Virus record (IMG/VR): IMGVR_UViG_3300045007_000300
Coordinates: 1-28,683 of that record
Strand: one strand, 5' to 3'
Source of the DNA: a virus
Length of the DNA: 28,683 nt
Shown: piece by piece, positions 2,058 to 24,785 of the stretch
How the letters are laid out: each line of letters begins with the position of its first letter
How positions within the stretch are numbered: position 1 is the stretch's first letter
The notes under the pieces: model-generated
What the model saw: the letters and a program-made list of their open reading frames with translations, nothing else
Told to the model about the DNA's origin: nothing
The model's database searches: none
Made by a program: the position numbers and the translations under genes

Positions 2058-3470
2058 GTGAACATGCTCAACGTCGAGTACCGCAAGGTCGAGACGCTGA
2101 TCCCCTACGCCCGGAATCCGAGGACGCACAACGACGAGCAGGTGGCCAAGATCGCCGCCAGCATCGTCGAGTACGGCTGGACTAATCCGATCCTGGTGGA
2201 CGGCGACAACGGCATCATCGCCGGCCACGGTCGGCTGGCGGCCGCGCGCAAGTTGGAGCTGACCGAGGTGCCGGTCATCGAACTGGCTCACCTGTCGCCC
2301 ACCCAGAAGCGCGCCTACGTGATTTCCGACAACCGCCTGGCGCTCGACGCCGGATGGGACGACGCGATGCTGGCGCTGGAACTGGCCGAGTTGTCCGAGG
2401 CCGGGTACGACCTCGCGCTCACCGGCTTCGACGATGCCGAGATCGAAGAGTTGCTCGCCACCGACGTCGCAGTCGGGGACGAAGCGGACGACGCACAGGA
2501 GAGCGATGAGACCGATGCGGCTGACGATGTCCCGGACGCTCCGGCGACGCCCGTCTCGCGTCCGGGTGACGTCTGGCAGCTGGGCGCGCATCGCGTCATC
2601 TGCGGTGACGCAGCCGATGCCAAGGTGGTCGCGGCCCTGATGGCTGGCGAGCAGGCGGCGCTCTGCTTCACCTCACCGCCCTACGGCAACCAGCGCGACT
2701 ACACGAACACCATCATCGATTGGGATGCCCTGATGCGCGGCGTATTCGCCCAGCTGCCGATGGCCGCCAACGGCCAGTTGCTGGTCAATCTCGGACTGAT
2801 TCACCGCGAACAGGAGGTCGTCCCGTACTGGGATGGATGGCTCGACTGGATGCGGACTCAAGGCTGGCGGCGCTTTGCCTGGTACGTATGGGATCAGGGG
2901 CCGGGACTGCCCGGCGACTGGAACGGTCGGCTCGCGCCGGCCTTCGAATTCGTCTTCCACTTCAACCGGAAGGACAGCGAGGCGCGCCGCCCCAACAAGA
3001 TCGTGCCCTGCATCTACGCCGGGCGCGACACCCATCTGCGCGGCGACGGCACCAGCGCGGGTGGCATGCGCAACAAGGACGGCAGTAAGACGGCGTGGAA
3101 TCACGTCGGCACCGTCACTCAGGATTTCCGCATCCCAGATTCGGTGGTTCGCATCATGCGGCACAAGGGCAAGATCGGTCAGGACATCGACCACCCGGCC
3201 GTCTTCCCGGTGGCGCTGCCCCAGTTCGTGCTGGAGTCCTACACCGACGAGGGCGAGATCGTGTTTGAACCGTTCTGTGGCTCGGGCACGACCCTCCTTG
3301 CCGCCCAGCGTACCGGGCGACTGACCCGGGCGACGGAGATCGCGCCCGAGTACGTCGATGTGACGGTCAAGCGCTTCCGGCAGAACTTCCCCGATGTGCC
3401 GGTGGCCCTGGCGGCCACCGGGCAGACCTTTGAGGAAGTTGCCGCCGAACGATTGGGAGCACAGGTATGA
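2058..3470 (+). CDS. ParB-like domain/DNA methyltransferase fusion (first of a tandem pair)
   Basis: A 470-residue two-domain protein. Residues about 5-100 are a ParB/sulfiredoxin-like domain with IIAGHGRLAAARKL and YVISDNRLALDAGW. An acidic linker follows. From about residue 175 comes an S-adenosylmethionine-dependent amino-methyltransferase domain of the circularly permuted type: SPPYG at 206-210 (motif IV), and FEPFCGSGTT at 403-412 (motif I) close to the C-terminus. SPPY is found in N4-cytosine and some N6-adenine enzymes, so the target base is uncertain. No cognate restriction gene is nearby. In phages such solitary enzymes usually modify the phage DNA against host restriction or tune packaging and transcription. 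GTG at 2058 is chosen because GGAA lies eight bases upstream; ATG at 2064 is the alternative. Confidence 0.85.
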   Translation: MNMLNVEYRKVETLIPYARNPRTHNDEQVAKIAASIVEYGWTNPILVDGDNGIIAGHGRLAAARKLELTEVPVIELAHLSPTQKRAYVISDNRLALDAGWDDAMLALELAELSEAGYDLALTGFDDAEIEELLATDVAVGDEADDAQESDETDAADDVPDAPATPVSRPGDVWQLGAHRVICGDAADAKVVAALMAGEQAALCFTSPPYGNQRDYTNTIIDWDALMRGVFAQLPMAANGQLLVNLGLIHREQEVVPYWDGWLDWMRTQGWRRFAWYVWDQGPGLPGDWNGRLAPAFEFVFHFNRKDSEARRPNKIVPCIYAGRDTHLRGDGTSAGGMRNKDGSKTAWNHVGTVTQDFRIPDSVVRIMRHKGKIGQDIDHPAVFPVALPQFVLESYTDEGEIVFEPFCGSGTTLLAAQRTGRLTRATEIAPEYVDVTVKRFRQNFPDVPVALAATGQTFEEVAAERLGAQV

Positions 3471-4795
3471 GCATCTCCTGGCTTGCCGACAAGATCGAGC
3501 AGTGGCCGACCAACCGGCTCGTGCCCTATGCCCGGAACGCGCGCACCCATACCGAATCGCAGGTGGCGCAGATCGCAGCCTCGATTGCCGAGTTCGGTTT
3601 TACCAATCCGATCCTCGCCGGCAGTGACGGCGTGATCGTCGCCGGGCACGGACGGCTAGCCGCCGCACAGAAGCTCGGCATCGAAATCGTGCCGGTGGTG
3701 GTGCTCGACCACCTGACACCAACCCAGCGCCGGGCGCTGGTGATCGCGGACAACCGGATCGCCGAGAACGCCGGCTGGGACGAGGCGATGCTGCAGGTGG
3801 AATTGGCAGCCCTGCAGGATGACGACTTCGATCTGACCCTGACCGGCTTCGACGCCGATGCCCTGGCCGATCTACTCGCCGGCGGCGAGACGACCACCGA
3901 GGGGCAGACTGACGAGGATGCCGCCCCCGAGGTGCCGGAGACGCCGGTGTCACGACCGGGCGATGTCTGGATCTGCGGCGAGCACCGTGTGCTCTGCGGC
4001 GACGCCACCGATGCCGATGCCTACGCCACGGTGCTGGGCGACGAGTTGGCCGGCATGGTGTTCACCGACCCGCCCTACAACGTGAACTACGCCAACAGTG
4101 CGAAGGACAAGATGCGCGGCAAGAACCGCGCGATCCTCAATGACAATCTCGGCGAGGGTTTCTACGATTTCCTGCTGGCGGCACTGACGCCGACGCTGGC
4201 CCACTGTCGTGGCGGCATCTATGTAGCGATGTCCTCCAGCGAACTCGACACCCTGCAATCAGCCTTCCGGGCTGCCGGCGGCCACTGGTCGACGTTCATC
4301 ATCTGGGCGAAGAATACCTTCACCCTCGGGCGTGCCGATTATCAGCGCCAGTACGAGCCGATTCTTTACGGCTGGCCGGATGGTGGCGAGCGCCACTGGT
4401 GCGGCGACCGCGACCAGGGCGACGTCTGGCAGATCAAGAAACCGCAGAAGAACGATCTGCACCCGACGATGAAGCCGGTGGAACTGGTGGAGCGGGCGAT
4501 TCGGAATTCCAGTCGCCCGGGTGACGTGGTGCTCGACCCGTTCGGCGGATCCGGCAGCACACTGATCGCCGCCGAGAAGTCGGGACGGCGGGCGCGGCTC
4601 ATCGAACTCGACCCGAAGTACGTGGATGTGATCGTGCGCCGCTGGCAGGCATGGACAGATAGAAGTACAGTGCGTGAACAAGATGGCGTCGCCTTCGATG
4701 ACCTGCTGGTGAATGCCTTGCCCGTTCCTGCCACCTCGATTGATCACGATGGAGTCCATTGCCACCCAACGGTTGCACCGTCGCAAACGCGATGA
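3467..4795 (+). CDS. ParB-like domain/N6-adenine DNA methyltransferase fusion (second of a tandem pair)
   Basis: A 442-residue protein overlapping the previous stop by ATGA. It has the same architecture as its neighbour: an N-terminal ParB-like domain (VAGHGRLAAAQKL, VIADNRIAENAGW), then the near-identical linker pattern PVSRPGDVW and HRVLCGDA, then a methyltransferase. The catalytic motif is DPPY at 201-204, typical of N6-adenine enzymes, and LDPFGGSGST at 356-365 is the SAM-binding motif. The N-terminal halves of the two proteins align throughout while the catalytic halves have diverged, which indicates duplication followed by specialisation, probably to different target sites. The last ~40 residues after the methyltransferase fold are not recognisable. 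Confidence 0.87.
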   Translation: MSISWLADKIEQWPTNRLVPYARNARTHTESQVAQIAASIAEFGFTNPILAGSDGVIVAGHGRLAAAQKLGIEIVPVVVLDHLTPTQRRALVIADNRIAENAGWDEAMLQVELAALQDDDFDLTLTGFDADALADLLAGGETTTEGQTDEDAAPEVPETPVSRPGDVWICGEHRVLCGDATDADAYATVLGDELAGMVFTDPPYNVNYANSAKDKMRGKNRAILNDNLGEGFYDFLLAALTPTLAHCRGGIYVAMSSSELDTLQSAFRAAGGHWSTFIIWAKNTFTLGRADYQRQYEPILYGWPDGGERHWCGDRDQGDVWQIKKPQKNDLHPTMKPVELVERAIRNSSRPGDVVLDPFGGSGSTLIAAEKSGRRARLIELDPKYVDVIVRRWQAWTDRSTVREQDGVAFDDLLVNALPVPATSIDHDGVHCHPTVAPSQTR

Positions 4796-5475: not shown

Positions 5476-5511
5476 CGTTTTCTCCTTCGGGTTGATCGTT
5501 GCGACACCCGT

Positions 5512-5542
5512 ATGAACGCGCTGTTCGATTGAGAAGCCAAGC
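5512..5542 (-). repeat. Leader repeat copy 1 (upstream of the gene starting at 5475)
   Basis: A 31-nt element also found at 6190-6220 and 6460-6490. All three keep ATGAACGCGCTGT at one end and GAAGCCAAGC at the other, with four or fewer differences between any pair. This copy ends 36 nt before the start codon of the reverse-strand gene. On the reverse strand it contains GAAC-AGCGC-GTTC, a possible small hairpin, and TTGGCT, which could be a -35 box, though no good -10 follows. Confidence 0.85.
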
Positions 5543-6155: not shown

Positions 6156-6189
6156 TTGATGCTCCTTCGTGGTGGTTGATGGTGTGGTC

Positions 6190-6220
6190 ATGAACGCGCT
6201 GTTCGAGAGTGAAGCCAAGC
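6190..6220 (-). repeat. Leader repeat copy 2 (upstream of the DUF3489 gene)
   Basis: Second copy of the 31-nt element, differing from copy 1 at three positions and from copy 3 at three. It ends 34 nt before the DUF3489 start. The similarity continues toward the gene: the leader between repeat and ribosome site shares ACCATCAAC with copy 3. An A-run lies on the far side (reverse strand), as with the other copies. Confidence 0.85.
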
Positions 6221-6424: not shown

Positions 6425-6459
6425 GTGCGTCTCCTTGTGGCGTCGTTGATGGTGATGGC

Positions 6460-6490
6460 ATGAACGCGCTGTCCCAGAGAGAAGCCAAGC
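6460..6490 (-). repeat. Leader repeat copy 3 (upstream of the DUF6900 gene)
   Basis: Third copy of the 31-nt element, 35 nt before the DUF6900 start. It differs from copy 1 at four positions. In the possible small hairpin (reverse strand) GAAC becomes GGAC, which still pairs with GTTC through a G-U wobble, so the changes do not break the fold. Confidence 0.85.
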
Positions 6491-15026: not shown

Positions 15027-15206
15027 ATGCCCAACCAAACCATTGAACTGCTGAAACCCCACACGCACACCGGCATCGTCTACCCACCGGGCGCGGTCAT
15101 CGCGCTCGACGACGACCTGGCGAAGTGGCTGGTCGATGCCGGCATCGCCCGGATCGTGCAGCCGACCCCGAAACCCATCCCCCGCAATGAGGAGAAATCC
15201 AAGTGA
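15027..15206 (+). CDS. Small tail-operon protein of unknown function
   Basis: A 59-residue protein starting at ATG 15027, with GAGGA upstream. It contains LKPHTHTGIVYPPGAVIALD, DDLAKWLVDAGIARIV and a basic, Pro-rich end. Small proteins of this form, a strand-rich half followed by one helix, occur just before the tail-tube gene in many siphophages, where their function is not known. The stop overlaps the GTG start of the tail-tube gene. Confidence 0.75.
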   Translation: MPNQTIELLKPHTHTGIVYPPGAVIALDDDLAKWLVDAGIARIVQPTPKPIPRNEEKSK

Positions 15207-15955
15207 GCTACTACGCATCCTTCCAAGGCCGGGTCTATCTCGGCAAGCGCGACATCAACGGCCTGCCCATCGAGGTGCGCAGCCCCGGCAACGTCGCCGA
15301 CCTGAAGCTATCCCTCAAAACCGAAGTGCTGGAGCACTACGAATCCCAGTCTGGCCAGCGCTCGCTCGACCACCGGATGATCAAGAGCAAGTCGGCCACG
15401 ATCAACCTGGCCATCGAGGAATTCACCAAGGAAAACCTCGCGCTCGCCCTCTACGGCACCCATGTCGCCACGACCGGCGGTACGGTGACCGACGAGCCGG
15501 TGGGCGGCGCGGCCCCGGTCGTGGGCGACCGCTATTTCCTCGCCCACCCCAAGGTGTCGACACTGGTCGTCAAGGATTCCGCCGGCACGCCGGCCACGCT
15601 GACGCTCGGCACGCACTACACCGCCGACACCGACTTCGGTGCCCTCCAGTTTCTGGATACCACCGGCCTCACCGCGCCGTTCAAGGCCAGCTACGCCTTC
15701 GGCGATGTCTCGGAGATCGGCATCTTCACGCAGCCGCTGCCCGAGCGTTACCTGCGCCTGGAGGGACTCAACACAGCCCAGGGCAACGCCAAGGTGCTGG
15801 TTGAGCTCTACCGCGTGGCCTTCGATCCGCTGAAGGAACTGGCGCTGATCTCGAACGAGTACAACAAGTTCGATCTGGAAGGCTCGCTCCTGGCCGACTC
15901 GACGAAACCCTACGACGCGGTGCTCGGCCAGTTCGGTCGCATCGTGCAGATCTGA
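15203..15955 (+). CDS. Major tail tube protein
   Basis: A 250-residue tail-tube protein. The start is GTG at 15203, with AGGAGAAATCC upstream and a GTGA overlap with the previous stop. Early segments (YASFQGRVYLGKRDINGLPI, LKLSLKTEVLEHYESQSGQ) are those of the tube proteins of lambda gpV-like and related siphophages. The C-terminal LALISNEYNKFDLEGSLLAD is also common to the family. Hexameric rings of this protein stack around the tape measure to form the tail. Position before the tail-assembly chaperone pair agrees. Confidence 0.9.
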   Translation: MSYYASFQGRVYLGKRDINGLPIEVRSPGNVADLKLSLKTEVLEHYESQSGQRSLDHRMIKSKSATINLAIEEFTKENLALALYGTHVATTGGTVTDEPVGGAAPVVGDRYFLAHPKVSTLVVKDSAGTPATLTLGTHYTADTDFGALQFLDTTGLTAPFKASYAFGDVSEIGIFTQPLPERYLRLEGLNTAQGNAKVLVELYRVAFDPLKELALISNEYNKFDLEGSLLADSTKPYDAVLGQFGRIVQI

Positions 15956-15957
15956 TC

Positions 15958-16380
15958 ATGGACGCGCAGACCTTCGCGGCGCTGCCGCCGGTACCCGAGA
16001 CCGTGATCATCGGCGGCGAAACCCTCGACATCACGCCTCTCAAGGTGGGCGAACTGCCGATCTTCGCCCGCACCGTGCGTCCCATCGCCGGCAAGCTCGG
16101 CCCCGATCCCGACTGGTTGCGCCTGCTGTCCGAGGATGGCGAGTCGGTGATTCTGGCACTGGCCATTGCCTGCCGCCGACCGCCGGAGTGGGTGTCGGGC
16201 CTGGCCCTAGACGACGCGATCCGGCTGGCCGAAGCGGTGTTCGGGGCGAACGCGGATTTTTTTATCCGCCGCGTGGTGCCGGAGATCACACGGGTGAGCC
16301 AAACCCTCGGCACGCTGATCCCTGGTCAGATGCCCTCCAGCGGCTCATCCGATCCGGCCACCGTTACCCCGACGTCCTGA
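15958..16380 (+). CDS. Tail assembly chaperone, short product (lambda gpG-like)
   Basis: A 140-residue protein, the same length as lambda gpG, lying between the tail tube and tape-measure genes as the chaperone does in most siphophages. The N-terminal half has ETVIIGGETLDITPLKVGEL, an opening common to these proteins, and the second half is helical with VFGANADFFIRRVVPEI. Codons 101 and 102 are TTT TTT and form a T7 slippery run with the base before them; all other Phe codons in this gene are TTC. Ribosomes that slip back one base would enter the frame that ends at 16529 and make a longer G-T type product of about 190 residues. Confidence 0.82.
   Translation: MDAQTFAALPPVPETVIIGGETLDITPLKVGELPIFARTVRPIAGKLGPDPDWLRLLSEDGESVILALAIACRRPPEWVSGLALDDAIRLAEAVFGANADFFIRRVVPEITRVSQTLGTLIPGQMPSSGSSDPATVTPTS
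16257..16263 (+). promoter_or_regulatory. Slippery heptamer T-TTT-TTT for programmed -1 frameshift
   Basis: In the frame of the chaperone gene the bases read GAT TTT TTT ATC, so 16257-16263 is an ideal X-XXY-YYZ heptamer made only of T. It is flanked by GCGGAT and ATCCGC, which could pair into a 6-bp hairpin with the T-run in its loop. The -1 frame downstream is open to 16529. No other heptamer of the right phase is present before the chaperone stop. Confidence 0.75.
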
Positions 16381-16529
16381 CCTACACGCTCGCGCAGCTG
16401 CGGGTGTTTCTCGCGGCCATCGACCGTGACGAACGCGACGATCTGGCGGCGCAGTTCGCCTTGCTGGTTACTGCCCAACGCGGCGGCAGCGCCGAGATCA
16501 AACAGCTGCTGAAGGAACTCTCTCGATGA
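16263..16529 (+). CDS. Tail assembly chaperone frameshift extension (lambda T-like)
   Basis: This frame has no plausible start codon of its own near its conserved part, yet it encodes sensible protein: LQRLIRSGHRYPDVLTYTLA followed by QLRVFLAAIDRDERDDLAAQ, a helical domain of the kind found after the chaperone in related phages. It ends KQLLKELSR, with an ATGA overlap to the next gene. After a -1 slip at the T7 run the fusion would be 102 chaperone residues plus 88 from this frame. As in lambda gpGT, the extension would bind the tail tube subunit or tape measure during assembly. The fusion is inferred. Confidence 0.7.
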   Translation, partial: YPPRGAGDHTGEPNPRHADPWSDALQRLIRSGHRYPDVLTYTLAQLRVFLAAIDRDERDDLAAQFALLVTAQRGGSAEIKQLLKELSR

Positions 16530-17179
16530 AACTCTCGCTCACCACCTCGGGCTTGCTCGAACCGAAGCGGCTCGACAGCTGGGTGCCAGAGAAGCGTCGG
16601 GCGATCCGGAAGGCGGTCGAGGCCGGGATGAAGGTCGCAGGCAAGGAGATCGTCCAGGCGGCCCAGTCCCGGATGCAGTCGGCCTTCAAGGTAAGGAAAG
16701 CCGGCTTCGTGAAGTCGATGCGCCACAAGCTCTACGCCGGCAGTCCCGAGAAATTCCCGGCGCTGCTGGTCGGCTCGCGCATTTCGTGGCTGGGCATCCA
16801 CGTCCGTGGAGGCACCATCGGCGGGCGACTCCTGATTCCGCTCCTGCCCGAGCACCAGCGCATCGGCCGCAAGGCGTTCCGGCGCGTGATCGACGGCCTG
16901 ATGCGTGCCGGCAATGCCTTCTTCATCGAGAGGAACGGCAAGGTGATCCTGATGGCCGAGAACATCAAGGACAACACCAGCGAACTGCGCCGTTTCAAGC
17001 GTGCCGAACGCGGCCGCACCGGCGCGAAATCGATCAAGCGTGGCCAGGAGATTCCCATCGCCGTGCTGGTGCCGAGTGTGACCCTGCGAGGTCGCTTTGA
17101 CCTGCCGGGGCTCGTGCGCTCGCAAATGCCCAAGCTCTCCACCGCGATCCTGCAACAACTCAACGCACAAGGTTTGTAA
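16526..17179 (+). CDS. DUF6441 family tail protein
   Basis: A 217-residue basic protein between the chaperone pair and the tape measure. EAGMKVAGKEIVQAAQSRMQ near the N-terminus, then LIPLLPEHQRIGRKAFRRVI and FFIERNGKVILMAENIKDN, fit the pattern I associate with DUF6441, a family found at this position in tail clusters. It has many Arg/Lys and no membrane segment. By position it may be a minor tail or assembly protein; its role is not established. The start overlaps the frameshift product by ATGA. Confidence 0.72.
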   Translation: MKLSLTTSGLLEPKRLDSWVPEKRRAIRKAVEAGMKVAGKEIVQAAQSRMQSAFKVRKAGFVKSMRHKLYAGSPEKFPALLVGSRISWLGIHVRGGTIGGRLLIPLLPEHQRIGRKAFRRVIDGLMRAGNAFFIERNGKVILMAENIKDNTSELRRFKRAERGRTGAKSIKRGQEIPIAVLVPSVTLRGRFDLPGLVRSQMPKLSTAILQQLNAQGL

Positions 17180-17182
17180 CCC

Positions 17183-20143
17183 GTGGCATCCGACCGCGCC
17201 CAAATCCTCATCACCGCCATTGACCAGACCAAGGCGGCGCTCGCCTCGGTGAAGGCGAATCTGGAGGGCCTGTCGTCGGCCGCTAGCAAGGTCAATGGCG
17301 TGCTGGCGGGACTGGGCGCAGCCTTGTCGCTGGGCGCGCTCGTTGCCGCTGGCAAGGCCGCCCTCGATACCGCCGACAACCTCTCCAAGCTCTCGCAGAA
17401 GACCGGCATTTCCGTCGAGTCGCTGTCGCTGCTGAAACCCATCGCTGAGCAGTCCGGGATTTCGCTGGAGGGACTGGCCAAGGGGATGCAGAAGCTGGCG
17501 ACCGCAATGGTCGAGGCGGCGGGCGGATCGAAGGAACAGGTCGAGGCCTTCAGCCGGTTGGGCGTTTCCGTCAAGGATGCCGCCGGCCAGTTGCGCCCGA
17601 CCGAAGAGGTGCTGCTCGATCTGGCCGATGCCTTCGCGGCGATGCCGGATGGGGCCGAGAAATCGGCGCTGGCCGTCAAACTCTTCGGCAAGAGCGGCGT
17701 CGAGCTGATCCCGTTCCTGAACCAAGGCCGGGCCGGCATCGAGGAACTCAAGCGGAAGTTCAAGGAGCTTGGCCTCGAGATCAGCGGCGACACCGCGAAG
17801 GCCGCCGAGAAGTTCAACGATACGCTGGACACGGTGAAGCAGGCTCTCTCCGGCATCGCCATGAAGGTGGCGGAAGCCGCGCTTCCGGCTCTGCAGGCGC
17901 TGGCCGACGCACTGGTGGCCCTGGCCAGCCACGGCGAAGAGATCATGACCGTGCTGCGGGTACTCGGGGAGATCATCGTCGCTGTGCTGGCCGTCAAGGG
18001 CGTCGCGGCGGTGGCTGCGTTGGGTAGTGCCTTGGCGGTACTGAAGGCAGCCTTCATGCGTTTCCTGCCGGTGCTCGCCGCCGTCGCGGTCTGGGAGATG
18101 GGGCGCGGCATCGTCAACATGGTGCAGGACATCCGCGAGACCAACCGCGCCATTGATGAGATGAACCGGCAGCGCCAGCAGCTAGAACAGCTGACCGCCG
18201 CGATGGAGGAACTGGCCAATACCGGCACGCTCTCCGTCAAAACCCAGATGATGCTGGCCGCGCAGGCCGCCGAGCGACTCAAGGCCGCATTGCCCGGTAC
18301 GGCAGACGCGCTGCGCGCCATCCAGGGCGCGGCCACTCAGGCTGGCGAAGCGATCCGGCAGGCGCTCGATGCCGAGACCAAGAAGGCCGCCGAAACCGTC
18401 AAGCAACTCTCAGCCAGCTACAAACAGGTCGCCGCCGACATCAAGGCGATCTGGGATGCGCGCGTTGCCGAGATCGAGTCGAACTACAAACGGCAGGAAG
18501 CGGCGGCGCAGAATGCGGCGCGCTCCGAAGCCGCCGCCATCCGCGAATCTGCCCAAGCATTACTCTCTGCCGAACGCGAGAAACTCGTGGCGGTGGAAGC
18601 CGGTGCGCGGCAGATGGAGTCGGCCTGGAAGGCCACCTACGGTCAGGCCGTGGCGCTCGCCCGCGCTGCCGGTCAGGACGTGCAAGCCATCGAGCGGCAG
18701 GCAGTCGAGGCGCGCATCGCCATCTACTCGCAACTGGAGTCGGCCTATCGTGCCACGGTCGACCGGCTGATCGCCGAGGAGCAGCGCCATCTGCAGGCCG
18801 CCAAGGCGGCCGACGAAGCACGGCTCAACCTGCGCCTGTCGGTCGAGGATCGCATCCGCGAACTGACACGCAAGGGGATGGACGAGTACGCGGCCTATCA
18901 GGATCGGCTGCGCCAGATCGACGAGAAGCAGGCGCAGGCCCGCGCGGCACTCGCCGCCGGCAACTACGAGCAGGCACGGAAACTCGCCGAGGAAGCCATC
19001 GCCCTGGCCGAGCGTACCGCCTCGGCGGTGACTCGCCAGGTCGAGCAGAACGGAAAGACGGTCACCCAGACCGTGGTGTCGGAGGGACAGGCGGCGGCGA
19101 CCGCCATCGGTGAGATCAAAGAGGCCGCCGGCATTGCCGATGCCGCCTTGAAGGGCTTGGGCGACGCGCACAAGCAGGCTGCCAGCGCCGCTGGCCAGGG
19201 TGCCGACGAGGCCAAACGTGCTCTTGCTTCCGTGTCCGACGAATTGGATAAGCTGCGCCAGCAGTTGCTCGCGCAGGACAAGCTCAAGCTCGAGGTCGAC
19301 ATCGAGGCCGCGAAAGCTGGCATCGAAAAGCTCAAGGCGCTGACCGAGGCGCAGCAGCTCGTCGCCAAGATTCAGGCTGACACCCAGGAGGCACAGGCCT
19401 CTCTGGAGAAACTGAAGTCCGACGCCGACAACCTGCAACTACTCGCCAAGGTCGAGGCCGACACCAGCCAGGTCATTGCCGATATCGACCGGCTCAAGGG
19501 CACACTTTCCAGCGCCAACGTGGAAATCCCGGCGCTGGTGTCCTTCGATCAGCCCCGCCAGCAGCTGGCGTCGTTCGCGCAGGATGCCAAAACGGTGCTG
19601 TCGGCCCCCACCTCGGCCACGCACACCGTGCAGCCTGACCTGAATCAGTACCGGGCTGCAGTGTCGGAACTGCTGCGCCCGACCTCCAGCACCCACACGA
19701 TCTACGTCACCAAGGTCTACACCAATGCCCAGGGTGGCCTGATCCAGAAGCTGGCTGAAGGTGGGCAGGCTGTGGCTGATGGATTTCGTCGAATGTCGGG
19801 GCGCATTTTCGGGCCGGGTACCGAAACCTCGGATTCGGTGCCGGCGCTGCTCTCACACGGCGAATTCGTGATCCGGGCGGCCAGCGTGCGCAAGTTCGGC
19901 GAGGCCTTCTTCGCTTCGCTCAACGCGGGCTTTCTGCCCGCCATGCCGCGCTTCGCCGCTGGAGGGGCGGTAGGCAATGCCGTGAGCCAGATGGCGATGA
20001 TGGCGGGTGACAACGGCACGCCGGCCCGCGATGTGGTCGACCTGCGCTTCCACGTCGGCGGCAAGCCGCACACGGTGCAGTCCTCGCGCGAGACGGCGAT
20101 GCAACTGGCGCAGGCGCTGCGCGAATTGTCGCGGGGGGTGTGA
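17183..20143 (+). CDS. Tail tape measure protein
   Basis: A 986-residue protein, the longest in the window, that sets tail length. It starts at GTG 17183 with a weak AAGG upstream. The N-terminal 220 residues carry LSKLSQKTGISVESLSLLKP and LADAFAAMPDGAEKSALAVK, a block conserved in tape measures. A hydrophobic region at about 260-310 probably inserts into the host membrane on DNA entry. From about 310 to 850 it is almost entirely Ala/Glu/Lys/Gln coiled coil with repeated KLK and EAQ blocks. The C-terminus has a Gly-rich region (LLSHGEFVIRAASVRKFGEA) typical of the proteins' distal end. Using the lambda proportion of about 0.15 nm per residue, the tail would be of the order of 150 nm, a rough estimate. 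Confidence 0.95.
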   Translation: MASDRAQILITAIDQTKAALASVKANLEGLSSAASKVNGVLAGLGAALSLGALVAAGKAALDTADNLSKLSQKTGISVESLSLLKPIAEQSGISLEGLAKGMQKLATAMVEAAGGSKEQVEAFSRLGVSVKDAAGQLRPTEEVLLDLADAFAAMPDGAEKSALAVKLFGKSGVELIPFLNQGRAGIEELKRKFKELGLEISGDTAKAAEKFNDTLDTVKQALSGIAMKVAEAALPALQALADALVALASHGEEIMTVLRVLGEIIVAVLAVKGVAAVAALGSALAVLKAAFMRFLPVLAAVAVWEMGRGIVNMVQDIRETNRAIDEMNRQRQQLEQLTAAMEELANTGTLSVKTQMMLAAQAAERLKAALPGTADALRAIQGAATQAGEAIRQALDAETKKAAETVKQLSASYKQVAADIKAIWDARVAEIESNYKRQEAAAQNAARSEAAAIRESAQALLSAEREKLVAVEAGARQMESAWKATYGQAVALARAAGQDVQAIERQAVEARIAIYSQLESAYRATVDRLIAEEQRHLQAAKAADEARLNLRLSVEDRIRELTRKGMDEYAAYQDRLRQIDEKQAQARAALAAGNYEQARKLAEEAIALAERTASAVTRQVEQNGKTVTQTVVSEGQAAATAIGEIKEAAGIADAALKGLGDAHKQAASAAGQGADEAKRALASVSDELDKLRQQLLAQDKLKLEVDIEAAKAGIEKLKALTEAQQLVAKIQADTQEAQASLEKLKSDADNLQLLAKVEADTSQVIADIDRLKGTLSSANVEIPALVSFDQPRQQLASFAQDAKTVLSAPTSATHTVQPDLNQYRAAVSELLRPTSSTHTIYVTKVYTNAQGGLIQKLAEGGQAVADGFRRMSGRIFGPGTETSDSVPALLSHGEFVIRAASVRKFGEAFFASLNAGFLPAMPRFAAGGAVGNAVSQMAMMAGDNGTPARDVVDLRFHVGGKPHTVQSSRETAMQLAQALRELSRGV

Positions 20144-22923: not shown

Positions 22924-23934
22924 ATGCCCATTCTCGACAATGAAATCGTCTGGCGGCCAGCCGCCCTGATGTCCGATGTGACGCCCGCGCAGAACGGCGG
23001 GCGGATGACCTTCTCGCAACTGGTGTCCGGGGTGAAAAACAATCTCTTCCCCGACGTGTCGCAGTCCGAGCGACTGGCCGGCGCGGTGAAGTGGCGCAAA
23101 GCCTTCATTCACGTCAACAGTGCGCAGGACACAGCGCTCCTGAACGTGCGCCTGTTCCTCGATAGCCTGACGCCTGCCGGCGACTTCGTGGTGTTCCAGC
23201 CGGGCACACAGACTGACACAGAGGATCAGATCGCCGGGCGGACCTATGGCATCGGCACGCTTTACGCACCCATCGTCGGTGGGGCCGTCCAGATTCAGGT
23301 GGCCTGCGAACACAACGCCGAGTACGCCACCCTGCAACCGCTTCGGGTCGGCGACGTGCTGCGCGTCTCGGATCGACCGAGCACCGGTGGTGCCGGCAAC
23401 GAGGAGTGGGTCAGCGTCACCGGCATTGCCTACGGCGTAGATTTCGCCACGGTGGATGTCTCACCCGCGCTCGTGAACAGCTACGCCACGTCGAACACGT
23501 TGGTGTCCAGCGTGCTGGAACTGCCGAGTGCCGTGGCCAGCGTGAGTGGCGTGTCGGTCACCAGCGGTGGCGGTAGCTTCGATTCCGCCACCGTCGGCAA
23601 CCTCGTCGCCCACAACAAGGGCGCGGTGGAAGAGAGTTGGACGCTGATCTTCACAAGCGCCACCACCTTCACGGTGTCGGGCAACACGGTCGGCACACTG
23701 GCCAGCCCGGGATCGGTCAGCGCCGACTACGCGCCTCTGAACCCGGCGACTGGTACGCCGTACCTCACCATCAAGGCCATCGCTTGGACTGGCACGTTCC
23801 AAACGAATGACACAGTGACCTTTGCAACGCAGCCTGCCGCGATCCCGATCTGGTATCGCCGCCAGGTGCCGGCGGGGACATTCAGCCTGGCGAACGACTT
23901 CACGTCGTTGGCCATTCACGGGGAGAGTGCGTGA
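22924..23934 (+). CDS. Tail-tip structural protein, beta-rich
   Basis: A 336-residue protein with GAGAGGAACCT directly before ATG 22924. The first 100 residues contain IVWRPAALMSDVTPAQNGGR and VKWRKAFIHVNSAQDTALLN; later segments are Ser/Thr/Val/Gly-rich (ASVSGVSVTSGGGSFDSATV, TFTVSGNTVGTLASPGSV), which suggests stacked beta-sandwich domains. No enzymatic motif, coiled coil or membrane segment is visible. It lies in the tail-tip gene set and overlaps the next gene by TGATG. A role as a minor tail or adhesin-supporting protein is inferred from place and composition. Confidence 0.7.
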   Translation: MPILDNEIVWRPAALMSDVTPAQNGGRMTFSQLVSGVKNNLFPDVSQSERLAGAVKWRKAFIHVNSAQDTALLNVRLFLDSLTPAGDFVVFQPGTQTDTEDQIAGRTYGIGTLYAPIVGGAVQIQVACEHNAEYATLQPLRVGDVLRVSDRPSTGGAGNEEWVSVTGIAYGVDFATVDVSPALVNSYATSNTLVSSVLELPSAVASVSGVSVTSGGGSFDSATVGNLVAHNKGAVEESWTLIFTSATTFTVSGNTVGTLASPGSVSADYAPLNPATGTPYLTIKAIAWTGTFQTNDTVTFATQPAAIPIWYRRQVPAGTFSLANDFTSLAIHGESA

Positions 23935-24785
23935 TGGCCCGGGTCGGCTTCAAAAAAACCTTCGCCACCGGCACCTTCGACAAGGCCGGTGTGCAGGCCC
24001 TGTTCGGCCACATCAAGAGCACACTCGTGGCGGCCGGGTTCCAGGTCATTCTGGACACCCCGGATGCCATCGACGTCATACCGATAGGCGCGAACCCTGC
24101 CTTGCCAAACGACGACACGCCGCACTGGGCACTCAACCTTCAGGATGCAGATACCACCGCGTACATTCGAGGCATTCCTGTGTTCGGTGCGAACTACCTC
24201 GATGGGGGAGCCCTCGCGGACAACGGCTTCATCATCGTCAATCCGAACTGGCGCTGGCAGGATCAGAACGCGGAAATCACGTTCTGGTTCGCCGCTGACA
24301 GCGTGGCGGGCTGGTGGTGGCTGCACGCCATCTCGCCCGACATCAACAGCAGCAATGGCCAGACGATGAGCTATGCGTGTGCAGCCGTTACGACGCGCCG
24401 CTACCCCGCCGATCAGCATCAAGGACTCTCGACCCGCTACGGTCTGTGGGACCCGTGGGGCGACTTCTATCCGGCCTACGCGATGGAGACGGATGGGACG
24501 CAGAACCGTTGGCCCTGGACGGGTACCTGGTCGCCCTTCGGCGAGGGATGGGATTTCAATGGAAAGCGCCATCCCGGTTCGCCACTGCCCAAAATGGCCG
24601 TGCCTCAGTTCCCGAATCGGGATGGCGGTGCCGTGTGCATCTACGGAGAGATCAATGAGATTCTGATCCTCACCGATGGCTATGCGCAGGAGGAACAGGT
24701 GTTGCCGGGCTGGGTGGCGATGACCGGCGATGACTGGGATCAACCCTACGCCGTGCCAGCGCCTGCCAGCTTCACCGTGCTATGA
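23934..24785 (+). CDS. Tail-tip structural protein, aromatic-rich
   Basis: A 283-residue protein, ATG 23934 with GGGAGAG upstream. It starts GFKKTFATGTFDKAGVQALF and includes WRWQDQNAEITFWFAADSVA, GWWWLHAIS and RWPWTGTWSPFGEGWDFNG, so it shares the strong Trp/Tyr bias of the large protein at 20143. The remainder is beta-rich. I do not recognise a family. The similar composition suggests the two proteins pack together or bind the same type of ligand at the tail tip. It overlaps the next start by ATGA. No catalytic motif could be picked out. Confidence 0.7.
   Translation: MARVGFKKTFATGTFDKAGVQALFGHIKSTLVAAGFQVILDTPDAIDVIPIGANPALPNDDTPHWALNLQDADTTAYIRGIPVFGANYLDGGALADNGFIIVNPNWRWQDQNAEITFWFAADSVAGWWWLHAISPDINSSNGQTMSYACAAVTTRRYPADQHQGLSTRYGLWDPWGDFYPAYAMETDGTQNRWPWTGTWSPFGEGWDFNGKRHPGSPLPKMAVPQFPNRDGGAVCIYGEINEILILTDGYAQEEQVLPGWVAMTGDDWDQPYAVPAPASFTVL

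Follow-up and report, generated by a model that had tools for sequence, protein, structure and literature searches.

The tail assembly chaperone gene of the virus investigated here very probably encodes two proteins, a G-like chaperone and a GT-like fusion, by way of a programmed -1 ribosomal frameshift at the heptamer T TTT TTT. On the basis of sequence comparisons, the probability of this reading is estimated at about 0.93. The window, by which is meant the complete 28,683-nucleotide stretch that was analysed (positions 1 to 28,683 of the IMG/VR virus record IMGVR_UViG_3300045007_000300), provides a further example of a trick that is known from phage lambda and has already been noted in related Pseudomonas phages. 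The relevant features are as follows.

15203..15955, plus strand: major tail protein (phrog_807, E=3e-81), the expected partner of the domain encoded in the -1 frame
15958..16380, plus strand: tail assembly chaperone read in the zero frame, 140 aa and lambda gpG-like (phrog_1442 'tail assembly chaperone', E=5e-28)
16243..16246, plus strand: Shine-Dalgarno-like GGGG (GAGG in most relatives), 10 nt before the heptamer; a proposed 5' stimulator, weak in the window
16257..16263, plus strand: slippery heptamer T TTT TTT, from the third base of codon 100 to codon 102, in phase and conserved
16263..16529, plus strand: -1 frame extension (lambda T-like part), which contributes 88 residues past the slip and has its stop codon at 16527-16529 (phrog_13355, E=1e-10)
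15958..16529, plus strand: predicted gpGT-like fusion, 190 aa, comprising 102 zero-frame residues and 88 from the -1 frame
16526..17179, plus strand: DUF6441 protein (PF20039, E=8e-82), the ATG of which overlaps the -1 frame stop (ATGA)
17183..20143, plus strand: tape measure protein (several PHROG tape measure families, e.g. phrog_8462, E=7e-47), the expected client of the chaperone pair

In the zero frame, the codons GAT (16255), TTT (16258), TTT (16261), and ATC (16264), preceded by GCG, constitute codons 100-103 of the 140-codon chaperone ORF. The T7 run is therefore in phase as T TTT TTT, just as an earlier note on this DNA had read it. That note had also stated that every other Phe codon in the gene is TTC, and indeed the remaining three are. 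Across the predicted genes of the window TTC is used 210 times and TTT 27 times. Three T7 or A7 runs are observed in the window versus 0.48 expected, and the one at 16257-16263 is the sole in-phase all-T or all-A slippery heptamer among the predicted genes. An A7 run at 23952-23958 on the plus strand, near the start of ORF 23931-24785, reads TTC AAA AAA ACC and thus has the phase C AAA AAA, which is not slippery.

Beyond the heptamer the zero frame continues for 38 codons. The -1 frame stays open as far as 16529, in agreement with the earlier note; the overlap of the two frames amounts to 120 nt. A comparison of the predicted fusion with phrog_14432 (191 positions) reveals a match that is collinear over the junction, with residues 63-188 aligned to positions 61-188. 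This is as would be expected if the members of that family are joined gpGT proteins.

According to the PHROG assignments, the gene order is tail terminator (phrog_4204), major tail protein, chaperone, -1 ORF, DUF6441, and tape measure. As in a G/GT pair, the overlapping ORFs sit between the major tail protein and tape measure genes, and the first of them is a tail assembly chaperone as judged by both phrog_1442 and fold matches. The DUF6441 gene (16526-17179, plus strand) separates the chaperone pair from the tape measure gene. Elsewhere in the window there are two tandem overlapping ORFs on the plus strand, 2058-3470 and 3467-4795, each with a weak match to ParB_N and a strong match to an N6_N4 DNA methylase domain. 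A leader of ~30 nt, TTGGCTTCNCTCTNGNACAGCGCGTTCATG, is present in three copies on the minus strand (5511-5540, 6189-6218, and 6459-6488), each positioned a few tens of bases 5' of a minus-strand start, where none would be expected by chance. The copies may represent a shared promoter or leader element.

Relatives were collected from viral contigs, genome contigs, and named phages, and yielded, with the window included, 142 distinct sequences extending to ~30% identity. In 77 of these the heptamer reads T TTT TTT and in 65 T TTT TTC; it is disrupted in none and is followed in 142/142 by a -1 ORF with the conserved domain. The alignment of homologues that the earlier note had proposed as a check was thus carried out, and the T-run passed it. 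In all 142 sequences the codon preceding TTT TTY ends in T. Outside the site, by comparison, the same genes contain 365 TTC to 88 TTT codons for Phe and 550 GAC to 348 GAT codons for Asp. On the tree, neither GAT nor the first TTT undergoes any third-position change, whereas most other codons show 10-35. The window comes from an IMG/VR-type virus record rather than from an isolate, and errors of sequencing or assembly, or gene decay, might be suspected; the identical arrangement in 142 distinct sequences, isolate genomes among them, renders such an origin so improbable as to be negligible.

The larger scans employed a peptide motif containing Phe-Phe in which all codons were allowed, a design that introduces no bias towards TTT but would miss homologues without Phe-Phe. 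Because of this motif bias, extra scans took the downstream domains of two further members as their starting point, with single sequences serving as queries. In the distinct loci found from the downstream domain alone, the in-phase heptamer was present in 34 of 34; a conserved in-phase slippery site within the overlap is a further property of G/GT pairs. The distant homologues B3 and JBD67 (both Beetrevirus) and Fc02, which were located by tblastn with no motif, contain C CCT TTC at the equivalent site, followed by a -1 ORF of ~90 codons. It is therefore the slipperiness that has been kept and not the Phe-Phe sequence, and altered letters with slipperiness retained are what selection for frameshifting would predict. 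The earlier note had named homologues that lack the T-run and yet carry the same overlap as evidence that would speak against it; in B3, JBD67, and Fc02 the run is replaced by this other heptamer. The downstream frames of D3112 (L276:980-1108, orf43) and B3 (L277:1025-1156, B3ORF45) are annotated as separate small ORFs; in both phages, nonetheless, a slippery heptamer lies in phase and the -1 frame runs on without interruption.

These same sequences bear on the idea that it is RNA polymerase that slips on the T-run, with the edited mRNAs being translated normally. The T7 run is a homopolymer, and one additional base in the mRNA would join the two frames in the same way. Six Ts only are present in 65 of the 142 sequences (T TTT TTC), however, the Beetrevirus C CCT TTC is not a homopolymer, and the phase and tandem-codon pattern are kept throughout. 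Polymerase slippage is accordingly considered very unlikely.

With respect to how the -1 frame is entered, its stop codons over the 142 sequences number 134 in the 60 codons upstream of the heptamer and 0 in the 60 codons downstream. In one relative, L039, the nearest upstream stop of the -1 frame is a TGA directly before the T-run. Among 25 close relatives, substitutions peak at codon position 3 upstream of the overlap, are mixed within it, and peak after it at zero-frame position 2, which corresponds to position 3 of the -1 frame. Specifically, the changes per codon at positions 3 and 2 are 5.17 and 0.42 before the overlap and 1.05 and 4.05 after it. This movement of the peak demonstrates that both frames are coding, and the domain encoded by the -1 extension is conserved in all relatives.

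An alternative is that the downstream frame is a separate gene with its own start, in which case the T-run would be incidental. A GTG is indeed present in the -1 frame of the window at 16188, and a start codon occupies this position in many relatives as well. This GTG, however, is a by-product of an invariant zero-frame Trp codon and is missing in many relatives, and the next ATG, GTG, or TTG, at 16404, already lies inside the conserved domain. Moreover, 51 of the 142 sequences are devoid of any ATG, GTG, or TTG in the -1 ORF ahead of the conserved domain, and a start codon within the linker after the heptamer occurs in only 2 of the 142. Given in addition the stop right before the run in L039 and the invariance of the run itself, a separate gene is extremely unlikely. 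The earlier note's claim that the -1 frame lacks a good start is borne out, and the independent downstream start that it had listed as grounds for rejection is contradicted by the 51 sequences that have none. A second ORF without its own start, reached by a -1 shift, is again what characterizes a G/GT pair.

AlphaFold2 models were obtained for both products. In that of the zero-frame protein (mean pLDDT 80), the last helix is formed by residues 84-120 and is broken by the frameshift at 102. The model of the -1 part (mean pLDDT 79) begins with a low-confidence linker, which is followed by helices. Since the fusion drops the second half of the last helix, the whole G fold may not persist in it. 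The best viral matches for the chaperone from Foldseek included tail assembly chaperones and a 'Pre-tape measure frameshift protein G', with TM values of ~0.4-0.5. Solved structures provided no match to the chaperone by sequence or by fold, the fold search with the -1 domain gave no significant match, and a search of NCBIfam gave no matches.

A shift elsewhere in the 120-nt overlap would leave intact the last helix of the chaperone, which is predicted to extend to residue 120, and the zero frame is in fact constrained for ~12 codons past the heptamer. Against this, no other in-phase slippery heptamer common to the relatives was found in the overlap, the -1 frame is without stops from the heptamer onwards in the 142 sequences, and public annotations place the slip at the T TTT TTY heptamer. 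A different shift site is thus regarded as extremely improbable.

Upstream of the heptamer by ~10 nt, a GAGG, GGGG, or GGAG core is observed in 133 of the 142 sequences. In a test of synonymous bias with 46 representatives that are <85% identical, for which the p and z values ignore residual relatedness, Gly at the Shine-Dalgarno (SD)-like codon is specified by GGR in 8/9 cases versus 27/147 elsewhere (p=2e-5), Glu by GAG in 34/35 versus 155/276 (p=2e-7), and the predicted anti-SD pairing at the element is stronger than in synonymous shuffles (z about -5). For these 46 representatives, it is the shuffles that show the stronger anti-SD pairing at ~20 nt upstream. The SD stimulators of -1 frameshifting are spaced by 9-14 nt, with the sequence just upstream being without competitor SDs (PMC5009743), and the element of the family falls within this spacing. 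The window itself contains GGGG only, with an anti-SD energy of about -5 kcal/mol. The conserved SD-like GAGG/GGGG element is new in this analysis for the chaperone family, in which, at 10 nt upstream, it probably stimulates the slip.

No conserved stem-loop, the other type of stimulator sought, was found downstream of the site in the relatives, and the excess folding just after the site is weak (mean z about -1.2). A candidate with an RNAalifold consensus energy of -9.9 kcal/mol over ~155 nt displayed scattered covariation and no conserved structure, and was rejected. The small palindrome reported in the earlier note, GCGGAT and ATCCGC flanking the site, is present in the window but in only 18 of the 142 sequences; it is not conserved, and as a functional hairpin it was dismissed as incidental. 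There is some chance, albeit less than even, that the product ratio is set mainly by the upstream SD-like element and not by 3' structure, and that the early slip swaps the second half of the last helix for a flexible Pro/Gly-rich linker. If this swap does occur, the long form is an alternative ending rather than a simple extension.

The following scheme for the frameshift is proposed. Most ribosomes would read 15958-16380 and produce the 140-aa G-like tail assembly chaperone. In a minority, both tRNA-Phe molecules, paired with TTT TTT in the P and A sites, would move back by one base to identical codons; these ribosomes would continue in the -1 frame to 16529, thereby producing the 190-aa GT-like fusion. 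The rate of slipping, probably boosted in the family by the SD-like sequence, would set the ratio of the two products. By analogy with lambda, from which the roles of the two chaperone products are transferred (PMC5009743), the shared N-terminal part would bind the tape measure protein and the helical domain encoded in the -1 frame would recruit the major tail protein. Counting against the scheme, U UUU UUU was less shift-prone than A AAA AAG in Escherichia coli constructs (PMC5009743).

The family described here constitutes an additional broad clade of phages and prophages, mostly environmental, whose second chaperone product is likely overlooked in annotation. It also offers a natural poly-U slip site that is well conserved and has a putative stimulator upstream of it. 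The way in which phage tail assembly is generally understood does not change.

The lambda G/GT system, in which the slippery heptamer is G GGA AAG, resembles the window in its order of major tail protein, G/GT, and tape measure genes, in its -1 frameshift, and in its G-like and extended products. This likeness is one of gene order and frameshifting, and the lambda slip site, unlike that of the window, is near the 3' end of G (PMC5009743). The earlier note had remarked that the slip in the window, 39 codons before the zero-frame stop, comes much earlier than in lambda. The position is, in fact, not peculiar: PaMx73 has a T TTT TTC slip 43 codons before the stop (PMC4378225), and an early slip is implied for SPP1, which uses UUUUUUC and in which gp17.5 shares 112 of its 173 residues with gp17.5* (PMC6316719). 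The SPP1 pair is thus like that of the window in being chaperones related by a -1 shift well before the zero-frame stop, although SPP1 is a phage of Bacillus subtilis with a longer extension (297-aa product) and is compared here by arrangement. A search of the literature for TTTTTTT in connection with tail assembly chaperones gave no match. The Beetrevirus chaperones (B3, JBD67) have a corresponding slip position and a similar -1 ORF, but differ in their heptamer, C CCT TTC.

Among the closest counterparts is also the gpG/gpGT pair of Casadabanvirus (MP22, MP38, MP42, D3112, PaMx73, and JBD30), which shares with the window a homologous chaperone, T TTT TTY at the same place, the -1 shift, the downstream domain, and a slip ~40 codons before the zero-frame stop. 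The link passes through an intermediate, VW-6B, at ~30-40% identity: by tblastn the window matches VW-6B at 39.5% (E=5e-9), and VW-6B matches MP38 at 41%. The A-site codon is TTC in Casadabanvirus and TTT in the window, and in the window the DUF6441 gene separates the pair from the tape measure gene. The same -1 event is annotated, on bioinformatic grounds, in the records of MP22, MP38, and MP42, and those of MP22 and MP42 give TTTTTTC as its slippery site.
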